Assembly: GCF_006658505.1 (NCBI RefSeq)
Contig: NZ_VFUZ01000024.1
Location: forward strand, 1 to 64,000
Reading direction: 5' to 3'
From: Mesorhizobium sp. B2-4-15
GTDB lineage: Bacteria; Pseudomonadota; Alphaproteobacteria; Rhizobiales; Rhizobiaceae
DNA length: 64,000 nucleotides
The notes under the pieces were generated by a model, which worked only from the letters and a program-made list of their open reading frames with translations, was not told the origin of the DNA and ran no database searches. This document shows, in pieces, positions 14,444 through 61,947 of the stretch; position 1 is the first letter of the stretch, and each line of letters begins with the position of its first letter. Both the position numbers and the translations under genes were made by a program.

Positions 14444-15439
14444 TCAGCCTCCGTTCGCGCGCCGGCGTTTCGCCTCGTCGAAGGCGACGGCCGCAATGAT
14501 GATCATGCCGGTGATGACCAGCTGCCATTCGGTGGGCAGGCCGAGCCCGCGCAGACCATTGGACAGGAACTGCAGGATGAGCACACCGAGCGCCATGCCG
14601 GTCAGGCTGCCGATGCCACCGGCAAGGCTGACCCCGCCAAGCACCGTGGCGGCCACGACCTGGAATTCGAAATTCAACCCCGCCGTATGCTGCGCCGAGC
14701 CGACCCGCGCGGCCAGGATGATGCCGGCGACCGTCGCCAGCAGCGCGCTGATGATGAAACAGACGAATTTGACGCGCCGCACATCGTAACCCGCCAGACG
14801 CGCCACTTCCTGATTGCCGCCAACGGCGTAGATCTGTCGCCCGAACGGCCGGTGCCGCATCATGTAGCCGAAGGCAACAAGCAGGATTATGGCAATGACC
14901 GCCGAATACGGCATGATGTTGAACAGCCGGCCATCCGACAGCGCGATGAAACTGTCGAGGCTGGCATCGTCCGGGATCGCGCGTTGGCCGGTGTAAAGAT
15001 AGACGCCGCCGCGCATGATGAACATCGTGCCGAGGGTCACGATCAGCGAGTTGATGCCGGCATAAGCGGTGAGATAGCCGTTCACCGCGCCGATGATCAG
15101 CCCAAACAGCAGCGCACCACCGACACCGAGGAGAAGCGAGTTGGTGTCGTTCATGATGATGATCAGCGGCAGGGCGATGGTTGCCAGCAGCGATCCTATG
15201 GAGATGTCCACTTCGCCGGAGATGAAGACGACCGCGCAGCCGATGCCAGCGATGAGCGGCAGCGAGGCCTGGCCAAGCACATTGGTCAGGTTGCGCACGG
15301 AAAAGAAATTCTCGACGGTGACGGAGAAGAACGCCAGCACCAGGATGAGGCAGACAAGCAGAGCCAGCTCCTGCCGGGCAAAGAGCCGCGCCAGCGTGGA
15401 TGGCTGGGTTTTTGCGGAAGCCGTGCTAGCAAGGCTCAT
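14444..15439 (-). CDS. RbsC-like sugar ABC transporter permease
   Basis: The 331-residue polytopic protein has about ten hydrophobic segments and the BPD_transp_2 hallmarks: ISGEVDISIGSLLA, GAVNGYLTAYAGINSLIVTL, PFGRQIYAVGGNQEVARLAG and GGVSLAGGIGS. It forms the membrane channel for sugar uptake with the ATPase encoded just upstream. It is one of two permease genes in this operon, so the channel may be a heterodimer. The spacing to the ATPase stop is 48 bases. Confidence 0.92.
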   Translation of the reverse strand: MSLASTASAKTQPSTLARLFARQELALLVCLILVLAFFSVTVENFFSVRNLTNVLGQASLPLIAGIGCAVVFISGEVDISIGSLLATIALPLIIIMNDTNSLLLGVGGALLFGLIIGAVNGYLTAYAGINSLIVTLGTMFIMRGGVYLYTGQRAIPDDASLDSFIALSDGRLFNIMPYSAVIAIILLVAFGYMMRHRPFGRQIYAVGGNQEVARLAGYDVRRVKFVCFIISALLATVAGIILAARVGSAQHTAGLNFEFQVVAATVLGGVSLAGGIGSLTGMALGVLILQFLSNGLRGLGLPTEWQLVITGMIIIAAVAFDEAKRRRANGG

Positions 15440-15487
15440 CGCTTGCTCCCTTCGAAAAGGCTGGGCCGATCGCGAAGCGTCATTGTC

Positions 15488-17020
15488 TCACCCGATCGCC
15501 GCATTGAGGATGTTCTCTTGCGTCGCTTCATCGCGCGACATGATCGCGGTCAGCCGGCCTTCGCACATCACCGCGATGCGGTCGGACAGACCAAGCAGCT
15601 CCGGCATCTCGGACGTCATCATGACCACCGCCAGGCCTTCGCCGGCGAGCCGGTCGATCAGCGCGAAGATTTCCGATTTGGCGCCGACATCGATGCCGCG
15701 CGTCGGCTCGTCGACGACGATGACCTTGAGGCCGCGCATCAGCCAGCGCGAGATCAGCACTTTCTGCTGGTTGCCGCCCGACAGGTTCTTCACCTGCTGG
15801 AACAGGCTCGGCGTCTTGATGCGGAAGCGGTCGACATAGTCCTGCACCGCGCGGTGCTCCTTCGCTTTGTCGACGAAGCCCAGTCGGGCGAAGGCACCAA
15901 GCGAGGCCAGGCTGGCATTCTGGTAGACAGGTAGCTCGCCCATCAGTCCCTCGCTCTTGCGGTCTTCGGTGAGCAGGCCGATGCCGAGCCGGACGCCGGT
16001 GCGCGTGTCATGCGGCGCGAGCCGGCTGCCGTCGACGGTGATCTTTCCCGAAATGATCGGATCATAGCCGACGATCGCCTTGGCGAGTTCGGTGCGGCCC
16101 GCCCCCATCAATCCGAAGAAGCCAAGCACCTCGCCGGCGCGTGCCTCGAACGACACATCGTCGAGCTTCTTCGCCGTGCTGAGCTTCTCCACCGACAGGG
16201 CAACCTTGCTGCCTGCCGCGCCGCGCTGGCGGGGAAACAGATTGTCGATGCGCCGGCCGATCATGTCCTGGATCAGCGTGTCGCTGGTGTGTTCGCCGAT
16301 CGGCTTGGTCGAGATGTGACGCCCGTCGCGCAGCACCGTCACCGTGTCGGCGATCTCGAAGACCTCGTCGAGCTTGTGGCTGACATAGACCACAGCGATG
16401 CCGAGGCTGGCCAGCCGTTGGATGACGGTGAACAGCAGCGAGACCTCGTTCGGCGTCAGCGAGGACGTCGGCTCGTCCATCACCACCACGCGGGCTTCAT
16501 GGGCGAGCGCGCGTGCTATCTCGACCATCTGCTGCTGGCTGACAGGCAGCGATCCGGTGCGCGCCGCCGGATCGACGTTGAAGCCGATGCGATTGAACAG
16601 GGCGGCTGAATCGGCGCGGATCTTCTTCCAGTCGATCGAGCCGGCCCTGCCGGTCGGATAGCCTTCGAGGAAGATATTCTCGGCGACGGTGAATTCGGAA
16701 ATCAGCGCGATCTCCTGGAAGACGACCTTGATGCCTTCCTTCAAGCTGTCGCGCGGCGACTTGATGTCGACCTCGCGCCCGCGCAGCCGAATGGTGCCGG
16801 CATCCTTGCCATAGACGCCGGCCATGATCTTGATCAGCGTCGACTTGCCGGCGCCGTTCTCGCCCATCAGGGCATGGATCTTGCCGGGCTCAAGGGTGAA
16901 GTCGACATTGTCCAGCGCCACCACGCCCGGGAAGCGCTTGTCGATGCCGCGCAGCTCCAGCGCCGGCACATCTTTGTCGATGACCACGCCTTCGCCGGGG
17001 TGAAGAAAATCAACGGACAT
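15488..17020 (-). CDS. RbsA/MglA-like sugar ABC transporter ATPase (two fused ABC domains)
   Basis: The 510-residue protein has two nucleotide-binding halves. The first has Walker A GENGAGKST (about 53-61), a degenerate signature VSQQQMVEIARAL and VVMDEPTSSLT. The second has the degenerate GLMGAGRTEL loop usual for this family, a full LSGGNQQKV signature and VIVVDEPTRGIDVG. It powers import of a monosaccharide-like solute. Its start overlaps the end of the upstream permease gene by 11 bases. The substrate of such ATPases cannot be read from sequence. Confidence 0.93.
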   Translation of the reverse strand: MSVDFLHPGEGVVIDKDVPALELRGIDKRFPGVVALDNVDFTLEPGKIHALMGENGAGKSTLIKIMAGVYGKDAGTIRLRGREVDIKSPRDSLKEGIKVVFQEIALISEFTVAENIFLEGYPTGRAGSIDWKKIRADSAALFNRIGFNVDPAARTGSLPVSQQQMVEIARALAHEARVVVMDEPTSSLTPNEVSLLFTVIQRLASLGIAVVYVSHKLDEVFEIADTVTVLRDGRHISTKPIGEHTSDTLIQDMIGRRIDNLFPRQRGAAGSKVALSVEKLSTAKKLDDVSFEARAGEVLGFFGLMGAGRTELAKAIVGYDPIISGKITVDGSRLAPHDTRTGVRLGIGLLTEDRKSEGLMGELPVYQNASLASLGAFARLGFVDKAKEHRAVQDYVDRFRIKTPSLFQQVKNLSGGNQQKVLISRWLMRGLKVIVVDEPTRGIDVGAKSEIFALIDRLAGEGLAVVMMTSEMPELLGLSDRIAVMCEGRLTAIMSRDEATQENILNAAIG

Positions 17021-17993
17021 TGGCTCTGTTCCGGATGATATCGAGATAGGTGGCCAGGATGATGACGACGCCCGGCACCACCATCTGCAGGTCCTGGTTC
17101 CAGCCGAGGATGATGATGCCGTTGTCGATCACCTTCAGCACCAGCACGCCGAGCAAGGTGCCGAACAGCGAACCGCGGCCGCCGAGCAGGCTCGTGCCGC
17201 CGAGGATGACGGCGGCGATGACCGTCAGTTCGAAGCCACGGCCGGCGGTCGGCTGGCCGGCATTCATCAGCGACGACAGGATCATGCCGGCGACGCCAAC
17301 GCACAGGCCGGTGACGACGAAGGCAAACAGCTTGAGGCGTTCGGAACGCAGGCCGGACAGGCGCACTGCCTTTTCATTGGCGCCGACCGCGTAGAGGTAG
17401 CGGCCGAGCGTGGTGAAACGCAGTGTCACATAGGCGACCACGAAGATCAGCGCCGCCAGGATGACGGGAACCGGCACCGCGCCGACATAGCCGGCGCCGA
17501 GATCGGTGAAGCTGGCCAACTGGTTGTGGTTCTGCACCGCCTCGCGGGTGAAGAGATAGACGCCGCCCTGCAGCATCATCATGGTGCCGATGGTGGCGAT
17601 CAACGAATTTACCCGCAATCGGGTGACGACCAGCCCGTTGAACAGGCCGACCCCGCCGGCAAAGGCAAGGGCCGCCAGCATGCCCAGCGTGAGGCTGTGG
17701 GTGGAATTGAGCACCGCCATGCCGATGCAGCCGACGAAGGCGAGCGACGCGCCGACCGACAGGTCGACCTCGGCGGTGATGATCAGCATGGTCATGCCCG
17801 AGGCGACGATCAGCACCAGCGCGCATTGGCGCAGGATGGCGATGATGTTGGCCTCCGAATAGAACTGTGGCGCGGCGATCGAGATAGCGATGCACAGCGC
17901 TGCCAGGATGACACCCAGCACAAGCTGGCTGCTGCCCAGAAGCTGGCCGCCGATAAAGCGCTTCGGCGCGGTGGCGTGAGTAAGCTCGCTCAT
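17010..17993 (-). CDS. RbsC-like sugar ABC transporter permease (second)
   Basis: The 327-residue permease is paralogous to the one at 14444-15439. It has TAEVDLSVGASLAFVGCIG, GLFNGLVVTRLRVNSLIATIG, TTLGRYLYAVGANEKAVRLSG and GGTSLLGGRGS. It belongs to the same transporter as the neighbouring ATPase, whose start it overlaps. It follows the binding-protein gene by 110 bases, a gap that holds a strong hairpin. Confidence 0.92.
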   Translation of the reverse strand: MSELTHATAPKRFIGGQLLGSSQLVLGVILAALCIAISIAAPQFYSEANIIAILRQCALVLIVASGMTMLIITAEVDLSVGASLAFVGCIGMAVLNSTHSLTLGMLAALAFAGGVGLFNGLVVTRLRVNSLIATIGTMMMLQGGVYLFTREAVQNHNQLASFTDLGAGYVGAVPVPVILAALIFVVAYVTLRFTTLGRYLYAVGANEKAVRLSGLRSERLKLFAFVVTGLCVGVAGMILSSLMNAGQPTAGRGFELTVIAAVILGGTSLLGGRGSLFGTLLGVLVLKVIDNGIIILGWNQDLQMVVPGVVIILATYLDIIRNRANVR

Positions 17994-54706: not shown

Positions 54707-55657
54707 TTGTCGTCTGCCGATGATCTGGAACGCTGGCCGGACCTGCCTTACGCGGCCTGGAAGGACACGTACGAGACCCTCCACTTGTGGACCCAGATCG
54801 TCGGCAAGATCCGCTTGATGCGCGAGCCCTGGCTGAACCATTCCTGGCATGTGCCGCTTTACGTGACCGCTCGCGGCTTGACGACCTCGCCGATCCCCAT
54901 GGGTGGGCGAGCATTTCAGATCGATTTCGATTTCATAGACCATCTGCTGTGGCTGAGGACGAGCGACGGTCACATCCGGCAAATCATGCTCGCGCCCAAA
55001 ACCGTGGCGGAGTTCTATGGCGAAGTAACGCTCGCGCTGGACGAACTCGGGCTCACGACGCCGATCTTCACCCAACCGTCCGAGATCGCCGACGGCGTCC
55101 CGTTCGATCAGGACCGTGTTCATGCCGCTTACGACCGCGACTATGCCAACCGCTTCTGGCGCATCCTGCTTTCGACGCACGCGGTCTTTTCGCGATTTCG
55201 CACGGGATACCTGGGCAAGGTCAGTCCCGTGCATTTCTTCTGGGGCGGTTTCGACCTCGCGGTCACGCGCTTTTCCGGCAGGCGGGCACCGCTGCATCCC
55301 GGCGGCGTGCCCGGCCTGCCGGACACGGTGGCCCGCGAAGCATATTCGCACGAGGTGTGCAGTGCCGGGTTTTGGCCGGGTGGCGGCCCGATCGACTACC
55401 TAACCTTCTATTCCTATGCCTATCCGGCGCCGGAAGGCTATGCATCGGCTGCTGTCCAGCCACCACAGGCGTTCTTCTCCAAGGAGTTCGGTGAATTCCT
55501 CCTGCCCTACGATGCCGTGCGCCGGGCGCGGGATCCGGAAGCCACGCTCATGTCGTTTCTGCAGAGCACCTACGAGGTGGCGGCCGACCTCGGCAAATGG
55601 GATCGCGACGCACTAGAATGCTCCGTCGGCGTGCCCTGTCGGCCGCGCCCGCTGTAG
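54707..55657 (+). CDS. DUF5996 family protein
   Basis: The 316-residue protein begins WPDLPYAAWKDTYETLHLWT and has NHSWHVPLYVTARGLTTSPI, VHFFWGGFDLAVTRFSGR and SHEVCSAGFWPGGG, all hallmarks of DUF5996. The domain has no known function; the many conserved Trp, His and Glu residues suggest a metal- or ligand-binding enzyme. The start is a TTG with GGGAGA upstream; no ATG is available before the conserved region. It is a single gene with 259 bp of featureless DNA before it. Confidence 0.85.
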   Translation: MSSADDLERWPDLPYAAWKDTYETLHLWTQIVGKIRLMREPWLNHSWHVPLYVTARGLTTSPIPMGGRAFQIDFDFIDHLLWLRTSDGHIRQIMLAPKTVAEFYGEVTLALDELGLTTPIFTQPSEIADGVPFDQDRVHAAYDRDYANRFWRILLSTHAVFSRFRTGYLGKVSPVHFFWGGFDLAVTRFSGRRAPLHPGGVPGLPDTVAREAYSHEVCSAGFWPGGGPIDYLTFYSYAYPAPEGYASAAVQPPQAFFSKEFGEFLLPYDAVRRARDPEATLMSFLQSTYEVAADLGKWDRDALECSVGVPCRPRPL

Positions 55658-55792
55658 ATTGGTGGCGGCCATGCCTTGCGCAATCACGCGTCCAGGCACC
55701 GCCGCCAGGGGCGACCGACAAAGGAATGGCGTGAACGACGTAAACTTTTTTGTTCGACAGGCGTTGTTCGTTCTCCAGACCGGGAGACAACC

Positions 55793-55915
55793 ATGCCAGA
55801 TGAAATCGCAAATCGCCGGCTAGGCCGCCAAGCAACGCCAGCGCAACATCGGTACTCCTCGATCCGTCGGCCAGCAGCCTATCGGCGTCGTGAAAGGTCG
55901 GTGAGATGTATTTAA
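55793..55915 (+). CDS. Short hypothetical protein upstream of the HAD-ATPase gene
   Basis: A 40-residue Arg-rich frame (MPDEIANRRLGRQ...) starts with an ATG six bases after GGGAG, a good site, and overlaps the start of the next gene by ten bases. It could be a leader peptide, or chance in GC-rich DNA. I do not recognise it. Confidence 0.25.
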   Translation: MPDEIANRRLGRQATPAQHRYSSIRRPAAYRRRERSVRCI

Positions 55916-57618
55916 TAGCCTTCGCGACGGATTACGACGGCACTCTTGCATATAACGGGACTGTCTCAAAAAAGACCATCTCCGCGCTCGAGCGGCTGAA
56001 AAAGACCGGTCGAAAGCTTATCCTGGTCACCGGCCGCGAATTGCCCGACCTCAAGCAGGTCTTTCCCGAGATGGCGCTGTTCGACAAGGTCGTCGCCGAA
56101 AATGGGGCGTTGGTCTATACGCCGGCCAGCGAAGAAGAACGCACCATTTCACCGGCGCCCTCGCCCGACTTTGTCGCCGCGCTGAAGAAGCGCGGCGTCA
56201 AGCCGCTATCGGTCGGGCGCTCGATCGTGGCCACCTGGGAGCCTCACCAGGCAACGGTGCTCGAGGTCATCAAGAAACTGGGACTGGAACTCGAGATCAT
56301 CTTCAACAAGGGCGCGGTGATGATCCTGCCGAGCGGCATCAACAAGGCGACCGGGCTTGCCGCTGTGCTGGAGGATCTTCGCCTGTCGCCGCTCAATGTG
56401 GTGGCGGTCGGCGATGCCGAAAACGACCACGCCTTCCTGAAAGCCTGCGGCTGCAGCGTCGCCGTCGACAACGCGCTGCCGGCGGTGAAAGACACCGCCG
56501 ATCTCGTGACGCGCGGCGCACGCGGCAAGGGCGTCGAGGAACTTATCAGCAAACTGATCAAGCAGGATCGCGCTATCGTGAAAAAGGGGCGCGACGGCGT
56601 CCTGCTCGGAACGGCAGGCGGCAAGGACATCCATCTGTCGCCGATCGATACGGTCCTGATCGCGGGGAGTTCCGGCATCGGCAAATCGACGCTGGCCACG
56701 GCGCTCACCGAACGGTTCGTCGAGGCGGGTTTTCAGTTCTGCATTTTCGATCCGGAAGGCGACTATGACGGCCTTCAAGGTGCGGTTGGGCTGGGCGACG
56801 GTTCGAGCGTGCCGACAAAGCAGCAAGTGCTCGATCTGATCGAAAAGCCTGATACCAATGTGATCGTCAACGGACTGGCTCTGCGTGTCGACGAACGCCC
56901 CGACTTCTTCGCCGACCTGCTGCCGGGCCTGGGCAATTTCCGTTATCGAACCGCAAGGCCGCATTGGCTGGTCATCGACGAAGCGCACCATCTTCTGCCC
57001 AGCCGGCGCGACGATACCCGTGCCGTGCTGTCCCTGGAATTGCCGGGCACGATCCTCATCACCGTGCATCCGGAGGCGGTCTCGGCGGATGTTCTGCGCC
57101 TGGTGACGGCGGTGATCGGCGTTGGCCCAACAGCCAAGAGCGTCATCCAGACATTCTGTCGTGAGACGAGAACCGAACCGCCAGGGCAAATGCCTTCGCC
57201 AAAGGGAGACCGCGTGCTGTTCTGGCGCCCGCAAATGGGCAAGAAACCAATGACCGTGAAGGTGATCGAACCGCGCCAGTCGCTCAGGCGACACAGCCGC
57301 AAATATGCCGAAGGCCAACTCGACGAGGCCGGCAGCTTCTATTTCAAAGGTCCCGACGATGCGATGAACCTGAGGGCGCACAATCTGATGATTTTCGCCC
57401 AGATGGCGGAGGGCATCGATGACAAGACCTGGGACTATCATTTACGCGCCGGCGACTATTCCGAATGGTTTCGCCACCAGATCAGGGACAAGGATCTGGC
57501 GCGCGAAACGGCAGCCGCCGAAAAGGACAAGACGCTATCGCCGCAAGAGAGCCGCAAGATCGTGCTCGACGCGGTGCGCCGGCGTTACACCGCTCCAGCC
57601 ACAGCGCCGGAAGAGTAG
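55906..57618 (+). CDS. HAD-IIB phosphatase fused to HerA-like ATPase
   Basis: The 570-residue protein joins two enzymes. Residues 1-215 are a Cof-type HAD hydrolase with the nucleophile and acid Asp9/Asp11 in FATDYDGTLAY, VTGR at 41-44, a Lys in SGINKATGLAAVLE and GDAENDHAFL at 169-178. Residues 240-470 are a P-loop ATPase of the HerA/DUF87 type with Walker A GSSGIGKST (254-262) and Walker B HWLVIDEAHHLL. The tail (about 470-570) is charged and helical. Fusion suggests ATP-driven movement coupled to dephosphorylation of a sugar or nucleotide; substrate and partners are unknown. No nuclease or transferase gene lies beside it. Confidence 0.85.
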   Translation: MYLIAFATDYDGTLAYNGTVSKKTISALERLKKTGRKLILVTGRELPDLKQVFPEMALFDKVVAENGALVYTPASEEERTISPAPSPDFVAALKKRGVKPLSVGRSIVATWEPHQATVLEVIKKLGLELEIIFNKGAVMILPSGINKATGLAAVLEDLRLSPLNVVAVGDAENDHAFLKACGCSVAVDNALPAVKDTADLVTRGARGKGVEELISKLIKQDRAIVKKGRDGVLLGTAGGKDIHLSPIDTVLIAGSSGIGKSTLATALTERFVEAGFQFCIFDPEGDYDGLQGAVGLGDGSSVPTKQQVLDLIEKPDTNVIVNGLALRVDERPDFFADLLPGLGNFRYRTARPHWLVIDEAHHLLPSRRDDTRAVLSLELPGTILITVHPEAVSADVLRLVTAVIGVGPTAKSVIQTFCRETRTEPPGQMPSPKGDRVLFWRPQMGKKPMTVKVIEPRQSLRRHSRKYAEGQLDEAGSFYFKGPDDAMNLRAHNLMIFAQMAEGIDDKTWDYHLRAGDYSEWFRHQIRDKDLARETAAAEKDKTLSPQESRKIVLDAVRRRYTAPATAPEE

Positions 57619-57685: not shown

Positions 57686-59965
57686 TCAAGTGACAAGATC
57701 CTCGATCCTGATCGGCAGGTCGCGAATGCGTTTTCCCGTTGCATGATAGACCGCGCTTGCCACGGCGGCCGCGGTTCCAACATTGCCGAGCTCACCCAGT
57801 CCCTTGACACCGGCCGGATTGACCTCGTGATCGATTTCCGGAACCAGGATCACCTCCACCTCCTTGATGTCGGCGTTGACGGGGACCAGATAATCTTGCA
57901 GGTCGCGGTTGACGTAACGCGCGTGGCGCTGGTCGATCTCCGTCGCTTCATGAAGGGCCTGACCGATGCCCCAGATCATGCCGCCCATCAATTGGCTTCG
58001 GGCGGTTCGCGTGTTCATGATGCGCCCAGCGGCAAAGGCGCCGACCAGTCGTGGTACCCGAACCTCCCGCGTATGGCTGTTGACGCGAACCTCGACGAAC
58101 TCCGCGCCGAAAGCATATTTTACCGAATCCTGATCCTGGTCGCCGCCGTGGAACTCCGACTCCCCGGCATAGAGTTTCTTCAGCGCCTCCGGCGAGGAAC
58201 CCCGTGGCGCGAATTCCGCATATTCCTCGATCGCGCCGATCTGCATGGTCTTGAAGAGGTCCGACAGAGCTGCCGACTTGCCATCATCGGCAACGATCTT
58301 TTCTCCTGCCATGTCGAGCTTCGCATTGCCGGAACCGGCAAGCGGACCACCCTCGCCCACGGCGGCCGCAAACAGTTTTTGACGCACCGCATCGCACGCC
58401 TTGAGAACCGCGGAGCAGACACTGGCGGTGGAGATCGAGCCTCCCGACACCGGTGCCGGCGGCAGGGCACTGTCACCCATTTCGACGCTGACCTTGTCCA
58501 AGTCGACGCCGAGGCGTTCGGCGGCCATCTGGCCGGCCACGGTGCGCACGCCGGTGCCGATTTCGTGCGAGCCGCACTGCACCCGGACCTGGCCATCCGC
58601 TGTCAAACGAATGCGGGCGGCACACGGCGCTACAGCGGTCGGGTAAATGGCGGTCGCGCATCCCATGCCGACCAGCCAGTCCCCGTCGCGCATCGAACCT
58701 ACCCTTGCCTCGCGCCTCGACCAGCCGAACGCCCTGGCGGCCTGTTCATAGCATTTGAGCAGCGACCGGCTGGAAAAGGGCTTTCCGCCGATCGGCTCCT
58801 TCTGCGGCTCGTTGATACGTCGGAACTCGATGGGATCCATGCCAAGCGCCACCGCCATTTCGTCCATGGCGTTTTCCAGCGCATAGACATAGGGCGTCTC
58901 GGGCGGCGATCGCATGTAACCCGGCGTGTTCCGGTCGGCACGGACCAGCGAGACATGCGTCAGCACCGAGCCATAGTTGTACATGCGGGCAGTGGCGGAG
59001 GCGCCGCCGACAACATAGGGATCGGGCCGGGACGTGACCTCCCAGCCCTCATGCGCGAATGCGGTGATGTGACCGTCCTTGCCTGCTCCGATGCGAATGC
59101 GGTGACGGGTTTCTGCCCGATAGGTCTGCGTGCCGAAAGCCTGCATGCGGCTGACCACGCAGCGCACCGGCCGACCCACACGACGAGCGGCGACCGCCAC
59201 GATCGCCGTACGAGCCGTCATCGGTCCCTTGGAACCGAATGCACCGCCAACATAGGGGCTGATGATACGCACATTGGCCGGATCGATCTTCAGCTGCCTC
59301 GCCAGTTCGATCTTCCAACCGGTGACGTTCTGGCTGGGCTCATGCACGGTGAGTTGGTCGCCCTGCCACCATGCCGTGGTTGAAAAGAGCTCGATAGGAT
59401 TGTGATGTTGGGTGGGTGTCGAATATTTCTGGTCGATCTTCACTTCGGCCGAGGCATAGGCGGAATCGAAGTCGCCGACCTTGGCGTCCTCCTTGTACAT
59501 CGGGCTTTTGCCGGCGGCCGGTTCGATCTTGGTTCCCTGGGAATCGAAGCTTGCGCTCGGGTTTTCCTGCGCGTAGTCGGCCTCAATCAGCATCGCGGCT
59601 TCTTCGGCTGCCTCGAAGCTCTCGGCGATCGTCAGGGCAATGATCTGGCCATCATGGAAAACGGTCTTGTCGTGCAACGGACCGATCGAACTAGCGCCGG
59701 TATTGCCGAATTTCGGCTTTTCGATCTGATCCATGTCGCCGATGCTGACGATGTCGAGCACGCCGGGGACGGCTCGCGCCCTGTCAAGGTGAAGAGCCTG
59801 GATCGCGCCCTTGGCAATCGTGCTGGTTGCAAGCGCGGCATAGGCGACATTCCCGGCGGCAAGGTCGGCGGAATAACCGGCCTGGCCGGTCACCTTCAGA
59901 CGGGCATCGATACGGGGAACCGGCTGGCCCATGTTCTCCTTCGGCGCGGGAGCGGCTTGGTTCAT
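57686..59965 (-). CDS. Molybdopterin-binding subunit of aldehyde oxidoreductase (PaoC-like)
   Basis: The 759-residue large subunit of the xanthine oxidase family has the PaoC/YagR pattern, with GQPVPRIDARLKVTGQAGYS near the N-terminus, YVGGAFGSKGPMTARTAIVA and QCGSHEIGTGVRTVAGQMAA. The catalytic Glu lies in KGLGELGNVGTAAAVA near the end. It oxidises aldehydes to acids at a molybdenum centre. The start at 59965 is two bases past the FAD-subunit stop; the frame is open further upstream only as a shadow of that gene. A dedicated chaperone gene (paoD) is not in the window. Confidence 0.93.
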   Translation of the reverse strand: MNQAAPAPKENMGQPVPRIDARLKVTGQAGYSADLAAGNVAYAALATSTIAKGAIQALHLDRARAVPGVLDIVSIGDMDQIEKPKFGNTGASSIGPLHDKTVFHDGQIIALTIAESFEAAEEAAMLIEADYAQENPSASFDSQGTKIEPAAGKSPMYKEDAKVGDFDSAYASAEVKIDQKYSTPTQHHNPIELFSTTAWWQGDQLTVHEPSQNVTGWKIELARQLKIDPANVRIISPYVGGAFGSKGPMTARTAIVAVAARRVGRPVRCVVSRMQAFGTQTYRAETRHRIRIGAGKDGHITAFAHEGWEVTSRPDPYVVGGASATARMYNYGSVLTHVSLVRADRNTPGYMRSPPETPYVYALENAMDEMAVALGMDPIEFRRINEPQKEPIGGKPFSSRSLLKCYEQAARAFGWSRREARVGSMRDGDWLVGMGCATAIYPTAVAPCAARIRLTADGQVRVQCGSHEIGTGVRTVAGQMAAERLGVDLDKVSVEMGDSALPPAPVSGGSISTASVCSAVLKACDAVRQKLFAAAVGEGGPLAGSGNAKLDMAGEKIVADDGKSAALSDLFKTMQIGAIEEYAEFAPRGSSPEALKKLYAGESEFHGGDQDQDSVKYAFGAEFVEVRVNSHTREVRVPRLVGAFAAGRIMNTRTARSQLMGGMIWGIGQALHEATEIDQRHARYVNRDLQDYLVPVNADIKEVEVILVPEIDHEVNPAGVKGLGELGNVGTAAAVASAVYHATGKRIRDLPIRIEDLVT

Positions 59966-59967
59966 AG

Positions 59968-60990
59968 TCAGACCTTCATATCGCGTGTTTCGAGCAGCGC
60001 CCGCACCAAAGTGCGTTTGCCAAGTGGTATCTTGAACGCGTTGTATCGCCTCGGCTGCGCTTCCGCGAAAGCGGCGTCGGCGGCCGTCTCGGCCACCTCC
60101 TGATCGAGCGTTTTGCCCTGGAGCGCCTCTTCCGCGGCTTTTGCCCGCCACGGCACCGTCGCCACGCCGCCCAGGGCTATTCGCGCATGCCTTATCATGT
60201 TGCCATCCAGATCGAGGGCGACGGCCGCCGAAGCCAAGGCGAATGCATAGGACTCGCGGTCGCGTATCTTCAGATAGTGCGAGCGGCGTGACCATGCCGC
60301 GAAAGGCACCTCGATGGCGACAATGACGTCGTCCGGCGCAAGATTTGTTTCAATGTCGGGCGTATCACCGGGAAGACGATGAAGTTTGGCGAACTCCATT
60401 CTGCGCGCGCCGCGCTTTCCTTCGATCTCGACGGTGGCATCGAGCGCAATCAACGCCTGGGCAAAATCGCCGTGATAGGTGGCGATACAGCCATCGCTTG
60501 TGCCGAGCACGGCATGCTGGCGGTTGAACCCTTCCATTGCCGCACAGCCGGAACCTGGATCGCGCTTGTTGCAGGGCCAAGAGGTCTCGCGGAAATACTC
60601 GCATCGCGTTCGTTGCAAGACATTGCCCGCAAGGCTGGCCATATTGCGGATCTGACCGCTGGCGGCGAGTTTCAGGCTCTCGGAGAGCAGAGGGCAGATT
60701 CGCCTGACATCGTCATTGTCGGCTGCCTCACCCATTCGAACCAACGCCCCGAAGCGGATGATGCCGTCACCGATCTTGATCTGTCGCAAGGTCGGTTCTC
60801 TCAGGGCGTTCAGATCGAGCAGCCGCTTGGGCTTGGCAACGCCGAGTTTCATGTAGTCAGCAAGGTTGGTGGCGCCGGCGATGAACTGAACGTCGGCTTT
60901 CGTCGGCTGATCCTGCTGGTCAGCAAAGCGCGAGGCGACCGCAACCGCGGCGGAGACGTCGGCAGGTCTTTCGTAGACGAAGGGCCGCAT
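59968..60990 (-). CDS. FAD-binding subunit of aldehyde oxidoreductase (PaoB-like)
   Basis: The 340-residue subunit starts MRPFVYERPADVSAAVAVAS and binds FAD through FIAGATNLADYMKLGV and SLAGNVLQRTRCEYFR. The Cys-rich stretch RTRCEYFRETSWPCNKR, continuing PGSGCAA, matches the extra 4Fe-4S site that marks PaoB/YagS within the family. It passes electrons from the molybdenum and iron-sulfur centres to an acceptor. It begins one base after the small-subunit stop with a GAGGAGG site. Confidence 0.93.
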   Translation of the reverse strand: MRPFVYERPADVSAAVAVASRFADQQDQPTKADVQFIAGATNLADYMKLGVAKPKRLLDLNALREPTLRQIKIGDGIIRFGALVRMGEAADNDDVRRICPLLSESLKLAASGQIRNMASLAGNVLQRTRCEYFRETSWPCNKRDPGSGCAAMEGFNRQHAVLGTSDGCIATYHGDFAQALIALDATVEIEGKRGARRMEFAKLHRLPGDTPDIETNLAPDDVIVAIEVPFAAWSRRSHYLKIRDRESYAFALASAAVALDLDGNMIRHARIALGGVATVPWRAKAAEEALQGKTLDQEVAETAADAAFAEAQPRRYNAFKIPLGKRTLVRALLETRDMKV

Positions 60991-60991
60991 G

Positions 60992-61624
60992 TCAGGACCT
61001 CCTCGTTTCGTCCCGCGCCTGGACAATGGCCGCGACGATGTTCGGATAGGCGGCGCACCGGCAAAGATTGCCGCTCATATATTCGCGGATATCATCTTCC
61101 GATCCCGCATGGCCTTCGTTGACGCAGCCGATCGCGGACATGATCTGGCCCGGCGTGCAATAGCCGCATTGGAAGGCATCATTGTCGATGAAGGCCTGTT
61201 GCATCGGATGCAGACTGCCATCGGCGGCGGCAAGCCCCTCGATGGTGGTAACGTCGCGGCCTTCGTTCATGACCGCGAAGCTTAGGCACGAGAGCACCCG
61301 TCTGCCGTCGACAAGAACAGTGCAGGCGCCGCATTGACCGTGGTCACAACCCTTCTTGGTACCAGTAAGTCCGGCATGGTCGCGCAGCGCGTCCAGCAGA
61401 CTGGTGCGATTGTCGAGGGCAAAATTGTAGGACTGCCTGTTGACGCGCATCGAAACCGCCGCAAGAGCGCGCGCATTGTCCTGACCGTCGGATGGCGGCT
61501 CCTCGGCTTTCGCCGACCGGGTAATGATCGGCATTGTCGCCGCTGCAAGAACGGATCCGCTCATGAAGCTGCGCCGGCTGAGTTTCGAAACGGTGGAGGT
61601 GCCGGTTGATATGACCTTGGGCAT
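60992..61624 (-). CDS. Tat-exported 2Fe-2S subunit of aldehyde oxidoreductase (PaoA-like)
   Basis: The 210-residue subunit has a twin-arginine signal (SKLSRRSFMSGSVLAAAT, Arg17-Arg18) ending near RSAKA. It then has two iron-sulfur clusters: CDHGQCGAC with LSC, and CGYCTPGQ with CRC. The signal should carry the whole assembled PaoABC complex to the periplasm, where it detoxifies aldehydes. The ATG at 61624 is the only start that exposes the Tat motif properly. It is the first gene of the three-gene operon and divergent from the small gene at 61782. Confidence 0.94.
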   Translation of the reverse strand: MPKVISTGTSTVSKLSRRSFMSGSVLAAATMPIITRSAKAEEPPSDGQDNARALAAVSMRVNRQSYNFALDNRTSLLDALRDHAGLTGTKKGCDHGQCGACTVLVDGRRVLSCLSFAVMNEGRDVTTIEGLAAADGSLHPMQQAFIDNDAFQCGYCTPGQIMSAIGCVNEGHAGSEDDIREYMSGNLCRCAAYPNIVAAIVQARDETRRS

Positions 61625-61781
61625 GGCTGGCTCGCGGCTGGCTTGAGTGGCCCGAACCGCCGAGATGCCACAAGGTTCCCCCCTCACGTCTCTGTGATCG
61701 CATTCCTCTTTGACAAGTAACTCCAGCGGGAACCTCCTTCCTTCAGCGGCGGTTCTTTGCCTGAGCAGGAGGCGATTAAGT

Positions 61782-61947
61782 ATGAGCGATCGACAAACCC
61801 GCCGTGAGAACGAAGGACCGGTCTTTCCGCACAAGACGCTCGGCAAGGCGAAATCGTCCTGAGAACCCGCACGGCCGGATCATCTTCATCGCCGGGCTGA
61901 TTGGTATCGTAGCGCTGGCAATCGTGCTGCGCCTTGCGATCGGCTGA
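61782..61947 (+). pseudogene. Small membrane peptide gene with apparent frameshifts
   Basis: An ATG at 61782 has a perfect AGGAGG site nine bases upstream and encodes MSDRQTRRENEGPVFPHKT before stopping at 61862. Shifting frame twice by one base gives ARQGEIVLRTRT and then GRIIFIAGLIGIVALAIVLR, ending at 61947: a ~55-residue peptide with one membrane helix, like small proteins I recall from Rhizobiales. Both shifts can be explained by one missing G in a G-run. It is either a decayed gene or a sequencing problem. Confidence 0.5.

Follow-up and report, generated by a model that had tools for sequence, protein, structure and literature searches.

A HAD-IIB phosphatase fused to a bare HerA/FtsK-type ATPase core and a DUF5752-like domain: a conserved three-domain family with a probable role in sugar metabolism

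One gene of Mesorhizobium sp. B2-4-15 encodes a HAD-IIB phosphatase domain, the core of a HerA/FtsK-type ATPase and a domain distantly like DUF5752 in a single chain of 570 amino acids. It lies at 55906–57618 (+) of the window (i.e. the whole stretch of 64,000 nucleotides that was analyzed, from contig NZ_VFUZ01000024.1) and forms one open reading frame of 570 codons plus stop, starting with ATG; the architecture is common to 36 aligned relatives. The three-domain enzyme family is real and conserved, and it is assembled from known parts. Its role is probably in sugar metabolism, perhaps under stress. We give an even chance to the reading that the protein is a cytoplasmic sugar-phosphate phosphatase whose attached ATPase core binds ATP and serves in regulation or assembly. 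This reading draws on the domains, their intact motifs and conservation, the gene neighbourhoods, the absence of HerA-specific parts and a partial complementarity with OtsB. The first-pass annotation had described a HAD phosphatase fused to a HerA-type ATPase with intact motifs, which was confirmed by Pfam, a structure model, fold matches and motif counts; it had overlooked the third, C-terminal domain, which is also conserved.

Pfam matched Hydrolase_3 (5.5e-33) and DUF87 (5.9e-7; 30.2 bits, cut-off 23.2) in the window protein, and an AlphaFold2 model built with 30 family sequences had a mean pLDDT of 87.6 and a pTM of 0.74. The gene appears monocistronic. According to the list of open reading frames, a gap of 248 bp (55658–55905) separates it from an upstream gene for a DUF5996 protein (54707–55657, +; 4.7e-139), which is absent from the list of recurrent neighbours. 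Downstream, a three-gene xanthine-dehydrogenase-type set (57686–61846, −; molybdopterin, FAD and 2Fe-2S subunits) is convergent with the fusion gene. With this upstream gap and the convergent downstream gene, the earlier description of the enzyme as stand-alone fits the window. Open reading frames on the opposite strand over the fusion gene also seemed conserved and were dismissed as shadows of the gene.

The HAD-IIB domain comprises residues 1–220 (55906–56565, +). HAD enzymes hydrolyse phosphate esters through an aspartyl-phosphate, and the HAD-IIB motif scheme consists of DxD (motif I), T/S (motif II), K (motif III) and GDxxND (motif IV); all motif residues are present in the window protein (D9, D11, T42, K147, D170 and D174). 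The domain scored 99.5 bits with TIGR01484 (HAD-SF-IIB; cut-off 41.8), i.e. a HAD core with a IIB-type cap. Motif counts covered 118 distinct family sequences; 110 of these are long, with at least 500 aa. D9 and D11 occur together in 116 of the 118 (109 of the 110 long sequences), K147, D170 and D174 in 117, and 116 have T or S at position 42. L063 and L114, the sequences that deviate, are both without an in-frame N-terminus. The HAD domain would be expected to hydrolyse a phosphate ester through an aspartyl-phosphate at D9, with D11 as acid/base.

In a fold comparison against the PDB, residues 2–223 of the model best matched 1wr8 (Z 26.8, 220 residues aligned, 28% identity), followed by the sugar phosphatases YidA, SupH, BT4131, MpgP, SPP and T6PP. 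The protein in 1wr8, PH1421, is an archaeal HAD-IIB enzyme of TIGR01487 and shares the fold and the HAD motifs, but it is a 231-residue chain without the ATPase and third domains. That this archaeal phosphoglycolate phosphatase and its family are the closest relatives of solved structure (TIGR01487 gave 102.4 bits, below its cut-off of 122.75) is one argument for a general HAD-IIB housekeeping phosphatase acting on phosphoglycolate or mixed sugar phosphates, with the ATPase as a sensor of metabolite damage or energy and the link to trehalose incidental. The varied neighbourhoods of fused copies point the same way, but OtsA was found at 5 of the 52 loci compared and four copies consisting of the HAD domain alone adjoin sugar-acting genes; we consider a housekeeping role unlikely. 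OtsB has HAD chemistry and a related fold in common with the window protein (6upb, Z 20.2) but belongs to a different HAD sequence family (PF02358), for which Pfam gave no match in the window protein at E ≤ 0.01. The window genome's own OtsB (258 aa), which coexists with the fusion gene, has no ATPase tail.

The second domain is a P-loop ATPase core of HerA/FtsK type at about residues 231–440 (56596–57225, +). DUF87 was matched by 28 of 30 ATPase domain sequences at E ≤ 0.001. HerA chains matched this part of the model in fold: 4d2i over residues 231–465 (Z 20.9, 222 residues aligned, 2.9 Å), 9x1m over 229–466 (Z 20.7) and 8xav over 229–494 (Z 20.4). When sequence profiles of the ATPase part were searched against the PDB, repeat and ABC proteins ranked highest, which was uninformative; the fold comparison was informative instead. 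In the Walker A motif, GSSGIGKS (residues 254–261; 56665–56688, +), G254, G259 and K260 are invariant in all 110 long sequences, as is the Walker B glutamate E359; the neighbouring D358 (both 56977–56982, +) is kept in 107 of the 110. D358 is replaced by Glu in L101 and by Gly in L111 and L112, all three of which retain E359.

The likeness to HerA (4d2i and drHerA) comprises the RecA-like core, Walker A and B, and an acidic residue after strand 2. Deinococcus HerA is described with two further parts, a NurA-binding HAS barrel at the N-terminus and a bundle of helices that is inserted into the chain after strand 2 (PMC9960219). The window protein has neither and carries a HAD domain in front instead. 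No HAS barrel was present in the model, where about 30 residues with one hairpin lie between the HAD domain and the P-loop. The helix-bundle insertion is absent as well, the distance from D282 (the acid after strand 2) to D358 being 76 residues versus 267 in drHerA (PMC9960219). Comparison with HerA did not place an arginine finger. The label "HerA-type" given earlier therefore stands for the RecA-like core and not for the rest of HerA, which is missing. Because these two parts of true HerA are lacking in the model, action as a DNA translocase is unlikely. From the missing DNA-handling parts we infer that the ATPase serves as a nucleotide-binding switch or as an assembly core.

The same absences (76 versus 267 residues) count against a defence or DNA-repair enzyme in which a HerA translocase would act with a phosphatase effector, as does the existence of the HAD domain without the ATPase. 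Such a function is suggested by the HerA fold, 8xav being an anti-phage defence complex, and by PADLOC, which gave only partial matches around the P-loop of the window protein (mad8, 1.7e-9 over residues 241–296). However, none of the nine window neighbours matched a PADLOC defence family at 1e-5. The phage search gave 14 records, none covering 80% of the protein, and the ten matches listed involved the HAD part only; a phage origin was dismissed for want of a full copy among these records. A scan of viral contigs with the ATPase alignment confirmed one distant relative among 135 candidate stretches. The defence role considered in the first-pass annotation is accordingly weakened by the PADLOC results, the phage search and the missing HerA parts, and we regard it as very improbable. 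Among annotated neighbours, no nuclease or Sir2 partner adjoined a family gene, and genes for metabolism, transport, sensing or stress prevailed, also in the neighbour tables of seven annotated relatives. There are two exceptions in the wider surroundings: genes for the RNA-guided endonuclease IscB and for an Rpn-family nuclease lie a few kilobases (14472–17115) from the HAD-only copy L089 on a Nostoc plasmid, and one Paraburkholderia copy has genes for a type VI effector and for RecQ at a distance of some kilobases.

The third domain spans about residues 458–565 (57277–57600, +). In all 110 long sequences F478, F480, F497, W509, H512, W521 and D528 are invariant. The family profile matched OrfY of Thermoproteus tenax (4cso) with E 4.9e-5, a value that arises from two stretches each weak alone, and in a model of the C-terminal part alone 4cso was again ranked first, weakly (E 0.42, probability 0.90). 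DUF5752 was matched by 26 of 33 family members at E ≤ 1 (best 1e-4); the window domain itself scored 14.3 bits, below the Pfam cut-off of 23. With this profile match and a top but weak fold match, and with one short copy in the window protein, the third domain is distantly like DUF5752/OrfY. Its profile was found in 7 of 200 sampled genomes, each time inside a full-length family member, and a full DUF5752 gene in 1 of 299 sampled genomes. This solo gene (L176:9033–9737, −) is flanked by genes for a glucan phosphorylase and a trehalose synthase of TreT type; two genes of the alpha-amylase family, which resemble TreZ and TreY, come next in the row. By eye, another gene nearby resembles a ROK kinase.

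Searching genome contigs confirmed 371 relatives, and the best 80 of the 371 match the query almost end to end. In the plasmid collection, eleven records hold at least 80% of the protein, from Sinorhizobium to Synechococcus and Nonomuraea. Full-length relatives thus occur in Pseudomonadota, a cyanobacterium (Synechococcus) and an actinobacterium (Nonomuraea); since the three-part chain is the same in all of them, the fusion is neither chance nor an assembly artefact. The family is sparse, being present in 10 of 398 phylum-sampled genomes (own genome and HAD-only copies counted), in 9 of 250 genomes from the order of G401 and in 24 of 296 from the order of G400 (centre genomes and HAD-only copies counted). 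The earlier statement that such a fusion is uncommon holds in this sense, yet 371 places in the genome-contig collection encode a relative.

Three alignments were used: A1 with 37 rows (from 39, after dropping L079, which ends early, and L120, which is like L121), A2 with 33 rows (L079, L120, L122, L128, L130 and L131 dropped) and A3 with 30 rows (A2 minus L082–L088 as well). Neighbours were compared on 46 loci (L072, L084, L089 and L108 not entered; L146 and L148 removed); a family gene was called in 42 of them and in none of L023, L140, L149 and L156. G897/G191 and G914/G194 were treated as the same genomes, their coordinates agreeing.

Six distinct relatives consist of the HAD domain only (L089, L160, L161, L162, L163 and L164), and five of them are 55–63% identical to the HAD domain of the window protein. 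In a tree of 50 chosen rows, five HAD-only copies branch among fused ones in three places, namely (i) L162/L163, (ii) L160/L161 and (iii) L089, whose exact place is weakly supported; L164 sits on a very long branch and is too divergent to place. The scattered branching of these sequences suggests repeated loss of the ATPase part. L074 lies outside the tree and is 94–96% identical to L071, L072, L073 and L075.

Several copies have neighbours that act on sugars. In Mesorhizobium, two HAD-only genes (L162 and L163) stand first in a row HAD>GT4>GDE>OtsA on one strand, where GDE is a debranching-type gene and OtsA the trehalose-6-phosphate synthase; fused copies of Aminobacter (L076 and L083) are divergent from a GT4>GDE>OtsA cluster; and another fused copy (L066) is near GT4>GDE>OtsA>OtsB. 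A fused copy of Caballeronia (L087) follows two GT4 genes by 15 bp, and that of L153 follows a ROK gene by 188 bp. A kinase-like gene precedes the HAD-only copies L160 and L161, at distances of 20 and 35 bp; these kinase-like genes (L160:6940–7998 and L161:6677–7918) are 55% identical over 339 residues, and that of L161 matches ROK at 1.5e-6. The OtsA-linked cases represent about three lineages and are not independent events. Many neighbours of fused copies are without evident tie to sugars. The related cluster in the window genome reads GT4>GDE>OtsA>OtsB and ends in a canonical OtsB, and that of G948 is free of any HAD copy within 19 kb. At L186:7097–9256, the debranching-type gene flanked by GT4 and OtsA is spread over more than one frame, and OtsB was not detected in the same genome. 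A stress enzyme, as the first-pass annotation had suggested, is plausible, some relatives adjoining trehalose-synthesis genes or a universal stress protein.

In the first six genomes, all four carriers of sub-clade 2 were without OtsB, and G000 and G946 had it. The OtsB pattern was then predicted beforehand for ten new genomes; nine agreed and one, G950, which has sub-clade 2 together with OtsB, did not. Altogether, the eight genomes checked for sub-clade 2 (support 97/92) all have OtsA and seven are without detected OtsB, whereas all seven genomes with sub-clade 1 only have both OtsA and OtsB. The corresponding Fisher p of 0.0014 (sub-clade 2 versus sub-clade 1 only, OtsB absence) is not corrected for kinship and overstates the association, because about three lineages lie behind these counts. 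The sub-clade-1 genomes G051, G067, G119, G167, G271 and G329 were assigned by 68–98% identity rather than by the tree, and the sub-clade-1-only status of six genomes is based on three scored candidates per genome. Outside the Fisher count are G946 (L066; OtsA and OtsB present), which was without a sub-clade 2 scan, and two plasmid records, of which L083's has OtsA and no OtsB and L082's has neither. Among 16 more distant fused carriers, OtsA and OtsB occur together in 14; G401 gave a match to OtsA but not to OtsB, and G398 to neither. The presence of a fused gene and OtsA in G401 (L081, L106) may mark a further displacement of OtsB.

Possibly the protein is a trehalose-6-phosphate phosphatase proper, i.e. 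an OtsB substitute with a regulatory tail, which in the window genome would be an additional enzyme for particular conditions; we consider this less probable than the favoured reading. In its favour are the HAD copies instead of OtsB beside GT4-GDE-OtsA (L162, L163, L076 and L083), the seven of eight sub-clade-2 genomes and G401. There is also the precedent of Sulfolobus acidocaldarius, where a GT4-type trehalose-6-phosphate synthase works although a canonical TPP homologue is missing; a HAD enzyme is predicted in its place (PMC7688234). Against it, the window protein belongs to sub-clade 1, with OtsB in all seven genomes checked, and is without a PF02358 match. As the window genome encodes its own OtsA and OtsB, it does not need the fusion protein as its trehalose-6-phosphate phosphatase, and the fusion protein is not the only candidate for that role there. 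Moreover, OtsA and OtsB had no match in the two genomes with kinase-linked HAD-only copies (L160 and L161), so the substrate cannot always be trehalose-6-phosphate. "Sugar-phosphate phosphatase" is therefore better supported than "trehalose-6-phosphate phosphatase". In Thermoproteus tenax, a fused synthase/phosphatase shows synthase activity only with a partner glycosyltransferase that is encoded in the same operon (PMC3634074). The Sulfolobus and Thermoproteus cases set a precedent for trehalose synthesis with unusual phosphatases and with protein complexes; they are no evidence on the window protein.

For the sugar-phosphate phosphatase with an ATP-binding core, we infer a substrate, ATP gating, an oligomer state and a role of the third domain. 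The substrate would most likely be trehalose-6-phosphate or a similar glycosyl phosphate from the metabolism of osmolytes. The HerA/FtsK-type core would bind and probably hydrolyse ATP, without DNA translocation, and may form a ring, or an oligomer of smaller size, through which ATP would control the gating or assembly of the phosphatase domains. The DUF5752-like domain may tether the protein to trehalose or alpha-glucan enzymes, or sense sugar. A more specific proposal starts from a HerA core that descends from a translocase and now serves as an ATP-reading ring. This ring would both cluster and gate the sugar-phosphate phosphatase domains and so tie the synthesis of trehalose-type osmolytes to the energy state of the cell, and sub-clade 2 would take the place of OtsB; in this full form the proposal is doubtful.

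Judged from titles and listings, a literature search on HAD and HerA/DUF87 fusions found no description of such a fusion. Searches on DUF5752 and on HerA/haloacid dehalogenase/domain architecture/ATPase returned nothing, and one on DUF87 and haloacid dehalogenase returned unrelated-looking titles only. Trehalose matters for the survival of heat and desiccation by Rhizobium etli (PMC3518184). The family provides a candidate for the missing trehalose-6-phosphate phosphatase of those Mesorhizobium and Aminobacter genomes in which OtsA is present and OtsB was not detected. If the favoured reading is true, a HerA/FtsK-type motor core would, without a DNA job, be serving metabolism.
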